Shown here in pieces: positions 1,234 to 23,745 of a DNA stretch of 24,562 nucleotides; the stretch's first letter is position 1; the number at the start of each line of letters is the position of its first letter. The stretch lies in the IMG/VR virus record IMGVR_UViG_3300034375_006016, positions 1-24,562 of that record; one strand, 5' to 3'. This DNA is from a virus. Position numbers and translations under genes: made by a program. The notes under the pieces are model-generated. The model was not told where the DNA came from. It worked only from the letters and a program-made list of their open reading frames with translations, and ran no database searches.

Positions 1234-1419
1234 CTACCAATATTCGTAGGCATAATCAGGCTGTAGCAATCTGGGATCACCATATCTACTGCCAAGATCG
1301 ATCTGATCCCGCTTCAGCATCTTGATCTCCGCCTTGGTGGGTTTGCGACCATACTTTTCACGGAATGCACGTTTCTTCTGGTTATTGCGTTCACTCCAGG
1401 TCTTTGTTCTAACTGCCAT
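1234..1419 (-). CDS. Small basic hypothetical protein (61 aa)
   Basis: The ATG at 1419 has an excellent Shine-Dalgarno, AAAGGAG, directly after a run of A residues. The protein starts MAVRTKTWSERNNQKKRAFR and has a basic N-terminal half (RKPTKAEIKMLKRDQ) and an aromatic, more acidic tail ending YAYEYW. No family is recognised. The gene is first in a two-gene unit (with 817-1206) driven by a near-consensus promoter at 1533-1560. It has an unusually long, structured leader of roughly 107 bases, listed separately, so its translation may be regulated. Confidence 0.7.
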   Translation of the reverse strand: MAVRTKTWSERNNQKKRAFREKYGRKPTKAEIKMLKRDQIDLGSRYGDPRLLQPDYAYEYW

Positions 1420-1532: not shown

Positions 1533-1560
1533 ATTATAGCACGGATTGAAATCGTGTCAA
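1533..1560 (-). promoter_or_regulatory. Near-consensus sigma-70 promoter with extended -10
   Basis: On the minus strand: -35 TTGACA (1555-1560), 16-base spacer, -10 TATAAT (1533-1538), both perfect. The -10 is preceded by TGC, an extended -10 (TGn) element. It drives the genes at 1419 and 1206 through a leader of about 107 bases. The bases around both boxes are shared with the promoters at 1967-1994 and 2238-2266. Confidence 0.8.
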
Positions 1561-1624
1561 CCTCCGGCATTTTTGAGAAGATTTTTTTCGCGTTCCGCTT
1601 TTTTTTGCGTCAGCAAATTTGCGC

Positions 1625-1960
1625 CTAGGCTTGAAATAGATAGAATGCCTTGAGTGCATAACGGTAGAAACCTTTACCAACCCTGCCTCCAGCATCTGCT
1701 ATGAACCGCTCCCTTGCCCTACGGCTTTTGGCCGCTGTCTCATACTGTGAAGCGTCCGCTATGAGTTGAACAAGATGTTTCAATGCTTGATCAAGTGAGG
1801 TTATGTCTGATAATTCAGCATAACCAAGATCACTTCGTTTATAAACTGACTTACCAAATGGTGCGTGCCGTTGTATCCAGGGTTCAACCACATCTAATAT
1901 TTGGCCTGGTATGCCATATGTGAATGCCATGGTTTTGAATTCTTTGTAAGTTGCTGTCAT
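1625..1960 (-). CDS. Hypothetical protein from a leaderless message (111 aa)
   Basis: The frame starts at ATG 1960 (MTATYKEFKTMAFTYGIPGQ) and there is no Shine-Dalgarno. The -10 box TATAAT ends six bases before the ATG, so transcription should begin at or next to the A of the start codon, giving a leaderless mRNA. The protein looks globular and soluble, with an Arg-rich segment (KSRRARERF, about residues 79-87) and an aromatic C-terminus (FYRYALKAFYLFQA). I see no known motif. The spacer after its stop (1561-1624) contains runs of seven and eight T (A on the coding strand) and no clear terminator. Confidence 0.65.
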   Translation of the reverse strand: MTATYKEFKTMAFTYGIPGQILDVVEPWIQRHAPFGKSVYKRSDLGYAELSDITSLDQALKHLVQLIADASQYETAAKSRRARERFIADAGGRVGKGFYRYALKAFYLFQA

Positions 1961-1966
1961 ACCACA

Positions 1967-1994
1967 ATTATAGCAGGGATCTGGTTCGTGTCAA
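1967..1994 (-). promoter_or_regulatory. Consensus promoter abutting a start codon
   Basis: Minus strand: -35 TTGACA (1989-1994), 16-base spacer, TGC plus TATAAT (1967-1972). Only six bases separate the -10 from the ATG at 1960, so the expected start site is the start codon itself. It shares GGTTGACACGA and TGCTATAATTGT with the promoter at 1533-1560, which suggests that the two are copies of one cassette. Confidence 0.8.
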
Positions 1995-2081
1995 CCTTCC
2001 GGAAAGATTTGGATATTTTTACAGTGTAAGAGGCCCGCCACCCTATTACCATTTCAGGGGACGCCACCGTGTCTACCGTGT

Positions 2082-2228
2082 CTATCGTGAGTCTGACGGG
2101 GATTCGACCATGGTGCCACAGCGTAGGGTCACGGGATCCACCCATGAGCCGGTGCGACAGGGCCATCCTGAGGGCTGACAGGCCGTGAGCAGGGTCAAAA
2201 CCGTGATGATCCAGGTGATTCGCGCCAT
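2082..2228 (-). CDS. Tiny predicted lipoprotein (48 aa)
   Basis: The ATG at 2228 opens a 48-codon frame ending in TAG at 2082. Residues 1-17 form a lipoprotein signal: MAR, the hydrophobic run ITWIITVLTLL, then the lipobox L-T-A-C with the lipid-accepting Cys at 17. The mature part is only 32 residues and has two further Cys (24 and 37) that could form a disulfide. It should be exported and anchored in a membrane. Known phage lipoproteins of this size include Rz1-type outer spanins and superinfection-exclusion proteins such as T5 Llp; the mature part is not especially proline-rich and no inner spanin is visible beside it, so I lean to exclusion or envelope modification. The promoter at 2238-2266 lies nine bases upstream, leaving a leader of only 2-3 nt. 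Confidence 0.65.
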   Translation of the reverse strand: MARITWIITVLTLLTACQPSGWPCRTGSWVDPVTLRCGTMVESPSDSR

Positions 2229-2237
2229 TGTGTCCGG

Positions 2238-2266
2238 ATTATAGCACGGAATTGGCAGGATGTCAA
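2238..2266 (-). promoter_or_regulatory. Consensus promoter for the lipoprotein gene
   Basis: Minus strand: TTGACA (2261-2266), 17-base spacer, TGC plus TATAAT (2238-2243). Both boxes are perfect with an extended -10. The block TCCGTGCTATAAT is identical to the promoter at 1533-1560. The ATG of the 48-residue lipoprotein follows after nine bases, so the leader is almost absent and no ribosome binding site fits in it. Confidence 0.8.
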
Positions 2267-2514
2267 CCCAAAATGGCGGCGAAAAAGGTGGTGAGAACGG
2301 TTCGATCGGGTGGTCTAACGCGGGTTTGGATGGTAATTTTATTATTTGAAAATTGATTTCCAGAGGCGGCCTTCCACCGTGTCATACGGCTCTAATACTC
2401 CGCATATAGCCTGCCGTGTAGCACTTCTTGTTGCTCGGACCTGTGTGTGTATGTTGTGGTAATGTTAATGAAAGTCAGCAGGAATCTGTTCGTGATTTCC
2501 TGCTCTGTTGGCTC
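2267..2514. other. Non-coding spacer with one hairpin
   Basis: I find no convincing gene on either strand here. The only clear element is an 8-bp perfect inverted repeat, AGCAGGAA (2477-2484) with TTCCTGCT (2497-2504), just after the stop of the 60-residue gene. It lacks a T tract on the minus strand, so it is at best a weak terminator or an RNA-stabilising hairpin. Confidence 0.4.
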
Positions 2515-2697
2515 TTACTTGCTCTTCATATTAGCCATCAGTATGCCGCTGATGTTCTCAAGTTCTTCTTTGATAGCATTGAGATTGTAGGCGATCTGTC
2601 CAAGGTTTCCATTTGCTGTGAAACCATAGATGTCATCTGTGCCCATTGCTTCAAAGTTATCAATTGCGTCAGCGATGTTCTGTAGTTCTTCTTGCAT
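2515..2697 (-). CDS. Small acidic hypothetical protein (60 aa)
   Basis: The ATG at 2697 has a strong ribosome binding site (AAAGGAG). The protein starts MQEELQNIADAIDNFEAMGT and continues with LNAIKEELENISGILMANMKSK. Two amphipathic helical stretches surround a Gly/Asn-rich turn; it is acidic and soluble, without membrane segments. It may be a small binding or inhibitor protein, but I recognise no family. It is expressed alone from the promoter at 2742-2770, divergent from the plus-strand gene at 2975, with an inverted-repeat region between the two promoters. Confidence 0.65.
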   Translation of the reverse strand: MQEELQNIADAIDNFEAMGTDDIYGFTANGNLGQIAYNLNAIKEELENISGILMANMKSK

Positions 2698-2741
2698 ACT
2701 GCTTTCTCCTTTCTATGTCGGTTTGTTTCTAACATAGTTTA

Positions 2742-2770
2742 ATAATAGCACACATCGGCGGCACAGTCTA
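2742..2770 (-). promoter_or_regulatory. Sigma-70-like promoter, weaker -35
   Basis: Minus strand: TAGACT (2765-2770, four of six matches), 17-base spacer, TATTAT (2742-2747, five of six) preceded by TGC. The start site would be near 2735, giving a leader of about 38 bases that contains AAAGGAG for the 60-residue gene. It points away from the plus-strand promoter at 2938-2967. Confidence 0.6.
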
Positions 2771-2794
2771 CTGATTTGGTAATCTAATCGGGGG

Positions 2795-2916
2795 GTGTTG
2801 CCCGCGACCTTTTCCGTAGCATATGGCAACACAATAGACACGATCGCGGGCGATAAGGGTGTTGCGGTGTTCACTTATAAGTCACACGTGCAAGGCATGT
2901 CCGAACACAGCAACAC
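2795..2916. repeat. Nested inverted repeats between divergent promoters
   Basis: Two hairpins share the stem sequence GTGTTGC/GCAACAC. The first pairs 2795-2802 with 2825-2832 (8 bp). The second pairs 2859-2872 with 2903-2916 (13 of 14 positions). Inside the second lie ACTTATAAGT (2873-2882, a perfect palindrome) and a 6-bp stem (2886-2891 with 2895-2900, one G-U). A further pair, GCCCGCGA (2800-2807) and TCGCGGGC (2844-2851), competes with the first hairpin. The region is upstream of both flanking promoters, so it probably acts as DNA (operator or origin) unless an unseen promoter transcribes it. Confidence 0.55.
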
Positions 2917-2937
2917 GACTATTTAATCACATTTTGG

Positions 2938-2967
2938 TTGACACCGTGACAGAGTGGCATATATAAT
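2938..2967 (+). promoter_or_regulatory. Consensus promoter abutting a plus-strand start codon
   Basis: Plus strand: TTGACA (2938-2943), 18-base spacer, TATAAT (2962-2967); an overlapping TATATA (2960-2965) would give a 16-base spacer. The expected start site is near 2974-2975, which coincides with the ATG at 2975. Earlier in-frame starts (GTG 2954, ATG 2969) lie in or beside the -10 box and cannot be on this transcript. Confidence 0.75.
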
Positions 2968-2974
2968 CATGATT

Positions 2975-3190
2975 ATGGCAACGAGACTCAACACACGACA
3001 ACGCGCGATCAATCAACTACAGGCATATCAGGCACGCCGACAAGAACAGGCAGTCCAACAATTCGGCAGACAATTTGGCAACGACATCATGGCACTGACT
3101 CCCAGGCAAGTGAGACGCATCAGGAGGCAAAGGCAGAGGCTACAGGCACAACGATCTAGGCTACAGAGAACAGACAAAGCCAAGTCTTAA
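2975..3190 (+). CDS. Arg/Gln-rich basic protein from a leaderless message (71 aa)
   Basis: The ATG at 2975 is chosen because the TATAAT box ends seven bases before it, so the message should start at or next to this codon; there is no Shine-Dalgarno. The protein begins MATRLNTRQRAINQLQAYQA, has a short neutral centre (FGRQFGNDIMALTPRQ) and a very basic C-terminal half (VRRIRRQRQRLQAQRSRLQR). It is probably helical and likely to bind nucleic acid or an acidic partner; this is inferred from composition alone. It is the first of two plus-strand genes in an otherwise minus-strand region and is followed by about 270 bases of structured non-coding sequence and a terminator. Confidence 0.65.
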   Translation: MATRLNTRQRAINQLQAYQARRQEQAVQQFGRQFGNDIMALTPRQVRRIRRQRQRLQAQRSRLQRTDKAKS

Positions 3191-3447
3191 CCAGTGGCTG
3201 AACGCAGGGTTGCAATATGACGGCTAATGAGCCCTGCCGTATGCGAGACGGTTCGAGGGACTGACCGCTCGTGCGTTACGGGGCCGCGGTCGCTGTATAT
3301 GAGTTTATAAGGAATACGTTCTCTCATTGGCGGCAGTCTTTTCTTGTGCGAGACCAAGCACGGGGGACGGGTATGGTGGATCTTTTTTTTTTGATCAAGA
3401 TCTGCACATAGCCGTCTTGTGACTTCAATCCAAGTGTCTGTCTGAAA
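3191..3447 (+). other. Structured non-coding stretch (candidate RNA or long 3' UTR)
   Basis: No convincing gene is present on either strand. On the plus strand, GCAGGGTT (3204-3211) pairs with 3230-3237, and a long imperfect hairpin runs from 3237 to 3281: CCGTA/TACGG at the base, then TGCGAG with CTCGTG and CGGT/ACCG near the tip. Further on, a run of ten T (3383-3392) sits in a hairpin with stem GATCTT/AAGATC (3379-3384, 3397-3402). Since the stretch lies between a plus-strand gene and a plus-strand terminator, it should be transcribed from the promoter at 2938 as a 3' UTR or a processed RNA. Confidence 0.4.
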
Positions 3448-3503
3448 GTAAATGAGAAAACACAATCACGGAGTGGCAACGGAGTGATTGTTTTTCCATT
3501 TAC
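3448..3503 (+). terminator. Long hairpin terminator, possibly bidirectional
   Basis: The core stem is perfect: ACAATCAC (3462-3469) with GTGATTGT (3484-3491), followed by T residues to 3495. The arms extend outward through an A run facing the T run to a further perfect 7-bp pair, GTAAATG (3448-3454) with CATTTAC (3497-3503). The complementary A and T runs could allow termination from both sides. It separates the 71-residue transcript from the next plus-strand promoter. Confidence 0.7.
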
Positions 3504-3520
3504 AGGTCTCAGAGAGACCT
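3504..3520. repeat. Perfect 7-bp inverted repeat upstream of a promoter
   Basis: AGGTCTC (3504-3510) and GAGACCT (3514-3520) are inverted copies separated by three bases. The repeat lies between the terminator hairpin and the -35 box at 3533, a position suited to an activator or repressor site. Confidence 0.45.
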
Positions 3521-3532
3521 CTAAACAGATCA

Positions 3533-3561
3533 TTGACATTGGTGACTGGATCAGTTATAAT
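3533..3561 (+). promoter_or_regulatory. Perfect consensus sigma-70 promoter
   Basis: Plus strand: TTGACA (3533-3538), 17-base spacer, TATAAT (3556-3561). All twelve box positions and the spacer length match the consensus. The ATG of the 86-residue gene follows after seven bases, so the transcript should be leaderless or nearly so. Confidence 0.85.
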
Positions 3562-3568
3562 CACACAC

Positions 3569-3829
3569 ATGACCCCGGAGGAATTACAATATCAATTCGA
3601 GACCCAAGAGCCACGTCGCCTGAACACGATAGCCACCGCCCACGTGATCGCGTTCGCTCGTCATGTGCTTGAACGCATACCACCTGCACGTTGGAATGCA
3701 AAACAGTGGGCCACTACCACTGGCATAGTTGATGTGTATCGGAGATCGCAAACCATATCAGTGCGACAGAAATGGTTCATCGTCAACACCTTGCGGGAAA
3801 CTGTGCCTGAAAATGTGTTCTACCTCTAG
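3569..3829 (+). CDS. Hypothetical protein from a leaderless message (86 aa)
   Basis: The frame is open further upstream, but the start must be the ATG at 3569: the -10 box ends seven bases before it, so transcription begins at about this codon. The protein starts MTPEELQYQFETQEPRRLNT. Its C-terminal half contains W-AKQW---TGIVDVYRRSQT-S-RQKWFI-N, a pattern loosely like the 'S-KQ' helical segments at the ends of phage DNA-metabolism proteins; this is a weak resemblance. No catalytic motif is visible. It is the last plus-strand gene before the convergent minus-strand tail operon. Confidence 0.65.
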   Translation: MTPEELQYQFETQEPRRLNTIATAHVIAFARHVLERIPPARWNAKQWATTTGIVDVYRRSQTISVRQKWFIVNTLRETVPENVFYL

Positions 3830-12477: not shown

Positions 12478-12984
12478 TTATTGGATACGGTCGAGGAATT
12501 GCCGTGGTTTGATTACTGTGAAGGGAACGTCAGGTGTTCGATCATTGACCACGAACACATCACGGTGTTGAAATAATCTACGGATCTTGTTGCGGGCTTG
12601 GTTGGTGTATTTCCTCCTGGGCCCATGTCCGTATATGTGGTCGAAACTGCTGTGCTCTGTGAGTCCCCAATCGCAACCTATGATGTAGATGTCACCTTCA
12701 TAATTGAATTCATTCACGGCCACCCAGCAGGCCAGTATGCCGGAGTTGGCACCACTCACTATGTGATTATCAACCAATCGCCATCCATCTATCCTGGCGT
12801 CGGCCCTGGTGTAGTATCTGGTGTTGGGGTTGATCTTGAGTTGTTTGACCACTTCGATGTCGAACGCACAAACGGCGTCAACGGGCCTTATTGTTTCAAT
12901 GTAGTTGCAACCTAGCTCAATAGGTTGTCGTGGCAGTGTGTCTGCTAGTTTGCTCTGTGATGGACCGTTGAACCAAATAAGCAT
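12478..12984 (-). CDS. GNGPS-type Rossmann-like protein, DUF115-related (168 aa)
   Basis: The protein opens MLIWFNGPSQSKLADTLP, where FNGPS (5-9) stands in place of the usual GNGPS loop. Then come ELGCNYIETIRPVDAVCAFD, SGANSGILACWVA (77-89) and DIYIIGCDWG (98-107). This order (loop, 'GCN', 'D---a-D', 'SG--A---A', 'iyl-G-D') is that of a phage family related to DUF115/6-hydroxymethylpterin or sugar-modifying enzymes. A nucleotide or nucleotide-sugar ligand is inferred; no reaction can be stated. The gene is inserted in the head module. Its ATG lies two bases after the T tract of the capsid terminator and has no Shine-Dalgarno. Confidence 0.6.
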   Translation of the reverse strand: MLIWFNGPSQSKLADTLPRQPIELGCNYIETIRPVDAVCAFDIEVVKQLKINPNTRYYTRADARIDGWRLVDNHIVSGANSGILACWVAVNEFNYEGDIYIIGCDWGLTEHSSFDHIYGHGPRRKYTNQARNKIRRLFQHRDVFVVNDRTPDVPFTVIKPRQFLDRIQ

Positions 12985-12986
12985 AT

Positions 12987-13013
12987 AAAAAGAAAGGGCC
13001 CGAAGGCCCTTTC
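12987..13013 (-). terminator. Rho-independent terminator after the capsid gene
   Basis: On the minus strand a perfect 9-bp stem GAAAGGGCC/GGCCCTTTC is capped by the stable tetraloop TTCG and followed by five T. It should end or reduce transcription after the capsid gene. The next gene starts two bases after the T tract, so its expression depends on read-through. Confidence 0.9.
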
Positions 13014-13028
13014 CATAATCCTGGAGGT

Positions 13029-23716: not shown

Positions 23717-23745
23717 ATTATATAGCATTCCCGATCCGTTGTCAA
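23717..23745 (-). promoter_or_regulatory. Perfect consensus promoter inside the fibre cluster
   Basis: Minus strand: TTGACA (23740-23745), 17-base spacer, TATAAT (23717-23722). All box positions match. It lies in the 41-base gap between the truncated fibre gene and the 59-residue gene, whose ATG comes six bases after the -10. It could be the start of transcription for the block down to terminase and beyond. Confidence 0.85.

Follow-up and report, generated by a model that had tools for sequence, protein, structure and literature searches.

Perfect sigma-70-type promoters joined to small, probably leaderless genes in an uncultivated virus related to pelagiphages

Five small open reading frames of an uncultivated virus lie immediately behind perfect TTGACA/TATAAT promoters, and it is very probable, judging from the DNA sequence, that they are largely monocistronic accessory genes driven by the host sigma-70 factor and expressed from leaderless or nearly leaderless mRNA. 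The direct basis of this reading is the geometry of promoters and start codons, its statistics, the conservation of the promoter boxes, the coding constraint on two of the genes, the occurrence of both arrangements in one gene family and the sharing of promoters between genes. The host housekeeping (sigma-70/RpoD-type) RNA polymerase would transcribe these genes from full-consensus, self-contained promoters in which the -10 box is joined straight onto the ORF. Transcription would begin at the start codon or at most about 3 nt from it, so that the mRNA would be leaderless or nearly so and would be read without Shine-Dalgarno (SD) pairing, presumably by 70S or other leaderless initiation. The structural genes and several neighbouring genes would be carried on leadered, SD-led mRNA. 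Each unit would be moron-like, consisting of a promoter and a gene and largely monocistronic, and one of them has a terminator-like hairpin behind it. The same promoter type would shift between genes, abutting an ATG in the leaderless ones and an SD in the leadered ones, and expression would probably be early or constitutive.

The virus and its promoter array

The window analysed (IMG/VR record IMGVR_UViG_3300034375_006016, positions 1 to 24,562) is the entire 24,562-base record of one uncultivated virus, with a G+C content of 0.49. A long structural block occupies the minus strand from 24.5 kb to 4.08 kb, and small genes on both strands fill the region 0-3.9 kb. The terminase is closest to those of the Pelagibacter phages HTVC026P, 111P, 112P and 202P and the lake phage DSL-LC06 (51-53% identity), and the capsid protein (44-46%) and the J-like tail protein (30-34%) match the same group, so that all three proteins place the virus among the HTVC pelagiphages, although its cultured relatives lack the promoter array. 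Scanning genomes with the J protein in search of a host gave no match, and the portal protein retrieved only relatives of 31-45% identity, the best in gammaproteobacterial MAG contigs that are possibly mis-binned phage. No tRNA was found in the window.

A promoter scan of the whole window has revealed six sites with all 12 bases of TTGACA-N16-18-TATAAT, and one additional site with 11/12 that is antisense within a gene. This pattern exceeds chance both in this virus and in its clade, as befits sigma-70 promoters. Behind five of the six perfect promoters an ATG follows 6, 6, 7, 7 or 9 nt past the -10 box and opens an ORF of 48-111 codons devoid of an SD, a sequence that could not be accommodated at these starts because the -10 box fills its position. 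Transcription usually starts about 7 nt beyond the -10 box and, on this assumption, the predicted leaders of the five units are 0-3 nt long. These genes share the layout of TA-led genes: the -10 box stops about 5-9 nt short of the start codon, and no SD lies upstream. By chance, 2.3% of promoter-like sites have, 4-9 nt downstream, an ATG that opens an ORF of at least 30 codons, and five of six against this background corresponds to a binomial p = 3.5e-8. The null model was an order-1 Markov resampling of the whole clade set described below, which yields 0.2 perfect promoters per set.

The initial annotation had described three near-consensus promoters with 6-7 bases between the -10 box and the ATG, a nearly leaderless gene at 2228 and a recurrence of the geometry at 23.7 kb, beside neighbours with strong ribosome binding sites. 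All of these promoters are present as exact 12/12 matches, the three named ones with spacings of 6 nt (ATG1960), 7 nt (ATG2975) and 7 nt (ATG3569). The neighbours at 756 (AAGGAG), 1206 (AAGGA), 1419 (AAGGAG) and 2697 (AAGGAG) do carry SD sequences, which also precede most structural genes, in contrast to the promoter-adjacent starts. The initial annotation missed the sixth perfect promoter, of the extended -10 type (1533..1560, minus), which precedes the SD-led gene with ATG1419 (1234..1419, minus) by about 115 bp. Its predicted leader of about 105 nt contains a hairpin, and this gene serves as the contrast case within the window.

The promoter-gene units

The ORF P0001 (1625..1960, minus, 111 aa) has its ATG 6 nt past a perfect TTGACA-N16-TATAAT promoter of the extended -10 type (1967..1994, minus). 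It is conserved at the protein level across four relatives (L020-L023, 46-51% identity) that share an invariant DAGGRVGKGFYRYALK motif and whose N-termini are consistent with its start. Ahead of the relative in L023 stands TTGACG-N16-TATTAT-6-ATG, which is of the leaderless type; in L020 and L021 about 24-30 nt of leader precede the start, one of the two showing a weak SD-like AGAAAGG, and the L022 relative can be read either way. The family thus alternates between leaderless and leadered forms, and the leaderless arrangement is not required by P0001, since two of its four relatives are leadered. The P0001 promoter also resembles that of an unrelated, SD-led gene (L045 +5451), with 13/16 spacer bases and 23/30 of the upstream 30 bp identical. 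The putative lipoprotein gene at ATG2228 (2082..2228, minus, 48 aa), assigned by inspection of a lipobox-like LLTAC, is separated by 9 nt from TTGACA-N17-TATAAT (2238..2266, minus, extended -10), which predicts a leader of 3 nt and a nearly leaderless message; no PHROG or Pfam match was obtained for this ORF.

On the plus strand, TTGACA-N18-TATAAT (2938..2967) precedes by 7 nt the ATG2975 of P0002 (2975..3190, 71 aa, Arg/Gln-rich). A second in-frame ATG at 2969, one nucleotide past the -10 box, could not lie on a normally initiated transcript. The P0002 homolog in L045 (2835-2632, minus) has TATACT 8 nt ahead of its ATG, and promoters similar to that of P0002 precede an SD-led ORF in L046 (+1617) and in L010 (-13425). 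P0002 is followed by a structured 3' region (3191..3455) that is conserved in L045 by alignment, with fold z-scores over 3185-3505 of -4.2 in this virus and -6.0 in L045. This region is a possible new RNA element, and no Rfam family matched in the window or in ten relatives. Next to it, a terminator-like hairpin followed by TTTTT (3456..3497, plus, -14.1 kcal/mol) is kept in L019 and L045. Lying between the 2938 and 3533 units, it speaks for separate transcription of the two.

The third plus-strand element, TTGACA-N17-TATAAT (3533..3561), lies 7 nt before the ATG3569 of P0003 (3569..3829, 86 aa, predicted all-helical). L019 and L045 share its position, with all 12 box bases kept and diverged spacers, and the start follows at 7 nt in this virus, 7 nt in L019 and 6 nt in L045, where the positional counterpart is a 79-aa ORF behind TATAAT-6-ATG. 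In L019 the P0003 counterpart is 83% identical and begins with GTG at an unchanged 7-nt offset; this GTG is less certain as a leaderless start. As to whether genes persist in related phages after losing the boxes, a point raised in the initial annotation, the picture is mixed: the 3533 arrangement is kept in two relatives, and the 1960 gene is leadered in L020 and L021 alongside the leaderless-type relative L023.

A different function of these promoters, the synthesis of small non-coding RNAs with incidental short ORFs, would agree with the conserved structured region behind P0002 and with the clade-wide count, in which about 12 of the 29 perfect promoters lack a following ORF of 30 codons or more and some of these run into hairpin-rich sequence. 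We consider it very improbable, as the dN/dS values of P0002 (0.15, versus its L045 homolog) and P0003 (0.45, versus L019) and the protein conservation of P0001 in four relatives mark these three as real coding genes, and the distances between -10 box and ATG cluster sharply. Searches of PHROG and Pfam gave no match that would point to a function of the small genes, and P0001 and P0003 gave no match in phage records and no fold match with their predicted models.

The fifth unit is inserted among structural genes. Its promoter, TTGACA-N17-TATAAT (23717..23745, minus), is located directly downstream of a virion-type gene and is also present in L025 and G022/L052, and it ends 6 nt before the ATG23710 of P0004 (23531..23710, minus, 59 aa); the mechanical ORF listing starts this frame at 23728, an ATG that precedes the last base of the -10 box. 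Independent transcription of P0004 is assumed here, and reading from upstream is also possible, the gene being in line with the structural operon. This location, together with the leadered P0001 relatives in L020 and L021, would fit a reading in which the promoters are real but the natural messages come by read-through from other promoters farther upstream; the genes would then have longer leaders that lack an SD, and the start next to the promoter would be secondary. Such read-through is quite unlikely as a general explanation, given that the -10 box excludes an SD from its usual position, that perfect consensus boxes are kept despite spacer divergence and that a terminator-like hairpin stands upstream of the 3533 unit.

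Start distances in related phages

Related phages were gathered through the J protein and the small proteins into a clade of 35 records (393 kb), mostly fragments. Because its members share descent the counts are not fully independent, and promoters were de-duplicated. The clade contains 29 distinct perfect promoters versus 0.2 in shuffles, and an ATG opening at least 30 codons was found at 4-9 nt in 13 of these 29, at 10-15 nt in none and at 16-57 nt in four; the shuffles had no ATG at 4-9 nt behind perfect promoters. Lowering the threshold to at least 11/12 gave 20, 0 and 13 of 56 promoters in the same distance classes, so that the start distances are bimodal with a gap at 10-15 nt. The excess persisted when this virus was left out (8/23 at 4-9 nt, p = 2.5e-8) and when the near-identical L025 was removed as well (7/22, p = 4e-7).

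The two distance classes also differ in their ribosome binding sites. Counting GTG and TTG starts too, none of the 21 starts at 5-9 nt has an SD, versus AAGGAG or GGAG before 13 of the 15 starts at 16 nt or more from the -10 box. The predicted leaders of the SD-led cases, mostly 10-22 nt, fit a transcription start about 7 nt past the same -10 box, and this lends support to the start predicted in the leaderless cases. A second pair of similar promoters, leaderless in L042 (-15227) and SD-led in L045 (+5853), adds to that of P0001, and such pairs suggest that genes can exchange promoters and that the way in which gene and promoter are joined decides whether a message is leaderless. Neither a downstream A/C-rich signature of leaderless genes (p = 0.09, not significant) nor a difference in promoter strength in favour of leaderless over SD-led genes (12/12 versus 11/12, p = 0.08, a trend only) was established in the clade. 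Some ATGs stand just 5 nt past the -10 box, close for a transcription start site, which speaks against reading these as leaderless.

Among the phages used as controls, no promoter of at least 11/12 at this start distance was found in four cultured HTVC siphoviruses, two roseophages, lambda, HK97 and a Vibrio phage. The freshwater phage DSL-LC06 has one, a perfect promoter with TATAAT exactly 6 nt before the annotated CDS at 1328. Perfect extended -10 promoters have the leaderless geometry in 7 of 15 clade cases versus 10 of 95 among the matches listed for a broad viral sample chosen blind to the start codon, whose rate is approximate (Fisher p = 0.002, and p = 0.0005 among promoters with any start). 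The arrangement therefore occurs elsewhere and is concentrated in this clade, in agreement with the earlier view that using it repeatedly next to SD-led genes would be uncommon in a phage. The leaderless or nearly leaderless messages proposed there are thus well supported as a prediction by geometry, statistics and related phages. The initial annotation had also suggested that these genes may be tied to a particular translation state of the host.

Known systems and short ORFs in the clade

Leaderless translation is familiar from some bacteria and from the lambda cI gene. The TA-led (TANNNT) leaderless genes of bacteria are most pronounced in Deinococcus-Thermus and Actinobacteria (Zheng et al. 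2011, PMC3160421; PMC12340547). The Deinococcus -10-motif genes are mostly without a -35 box (PMC12340547), whereas both boxes are perfect in this virus, and the genes described here belong to a phage group and adjoin SD-led phage genes. The phage precedent, lambda cI transcribed from PRM (PMC9031893, PMC3160421), is a single regulated repressor gene, unlike the several unrelated small genes with consensus promoters found here, and the same scan detected no promoter of at least 11/12 in lambda. Two leader-length classes separated by a gap are also seen in Lactococcus cremoris, where measured leaders are bimodal and none has 4-14 nt (PMC10986495). That work, however, concerns a measured Gram-positive transcriptome and ours the geometry of phage DNA, and the SD-led class here, unlike that of L. 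cremoris, includes predicted leaders of 10-14 nt. The units recall phage morons, annotated for example in HK97, in being small accessory genes with their own promoter, one of them among structural genes, but differ in the leaderless joining of promoter and gene. As for moron-type autonomy, the promoters are clear and a terminator-like hairpin is found only between the 2938 and 3533 units.

No report of systematic leaderless use by a phage group was found in the open-paper literature searched, which is weak evidence of novelty because the search was limited to open papers. The clade offers natural matched pairs, with one promoter type before leaderless and SD-led genes and one family in both forms, and these allow a direct test of why genes go leaderless. 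For annotation, gene callers that reward an SD are likely to overlook small genes of this kind or to misplace their starts. More tentatively, and with considerable doubt, this group of aquatic phages could keep a distinct expression class, in which an array of host promoters with full consensus, joined to small genes and mini leader peptides, yields leaderless messages that bypass SD recognition. Such a class would allow the production of these proteins in conditions, or in a phase, in which the SD-led phage messages are not used.

Some leaderless starts might open leader peptides that regulate or couple the translation of the next SD-led gene. This is unlikely: the ORFs of this virus have 48-111 codons, and no abutting SD-led gene was identified. 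The idea draws on shorter ORFs in two relatives. In L044, two 13-codon ORFs (15196 and 15489, MFN...KGRI) begin 5 nt past TATAAT and their TAG stop abuts the ATG of an SD-led gene, and the 11-codon form found in L041 overlaps with the ATG that follows it.

Conserved sequences at the 3' ends of leaderless-type ORFs

Fold z-scores and alignment have revealed a conserved folding region behind P0002 (71-aa leaderless-type ORF, 2975..3190, plus strand), located at 3191-3455 in the window and at about 2631-2350 (minus) in the related phage L045. Folding was strong in both copies (z -4.2 in the window and -6.0 in L045), AATATGACGGCTAATGA was invariant between them, and the flanking stems differed in sequence with pairing retained. 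These two copies were the only ones found, and a search of the window and ten relatives against Rfam gave no match for this region.

At the end of P0001 (111-aa leaderless-type ORF, 1625..1960, minus strand) and about 25 bp past its stop codon (window 1600-1697), DNA identity to L023 was 88%, against 46% overall identity between the proteins. A constraint at the nucleic acid level is possible on this segment.

Leaderless-type starts near SD-led starts

Leaderless-type mini-ORFs (MFN...) of 13, 13 and 11 codons were found in L044 (15196 and 15489) and L041 (near 1109, minus strand), respectively; their stop codons abut (L044) or overlap (L041) the ATG of an SD-led gene, and they could be coupled leader peptides. 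An ORF of L027 (9050-9100) has a second in-frame ATG, AAAGGAGG-led, 14 codons past its leaderless-type ATG, and possibly yields two protein forms.

Hairpins and promoters without a clear ORF

The 168-aa ORF at 12478-12984, which lacks an SD, has its ATG 2 nt downstream of the end of GAAAGGGCCTTCGGGCCCTTTCTTTTT (window 12984-13014, minus), a strong hairpin of terminator-like type that includes a T run. The perfect extended -10 promoter at 1533..1560 (minus) has a predicted leader of roughly 105 nt (1419-1533, minus), opened by hairpin AGAGAGTTAATACTCATAACTCTCT, to the SD-led gene at 1419.

L042 (15497 and 15367, minus) and L043 (420, plus) carry perfect promoters that lead into no evident ORF. 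Each is followed by an inverted repeat of the GGGGACG...CGTCCCC type, and these promoters might produce small RNAs.
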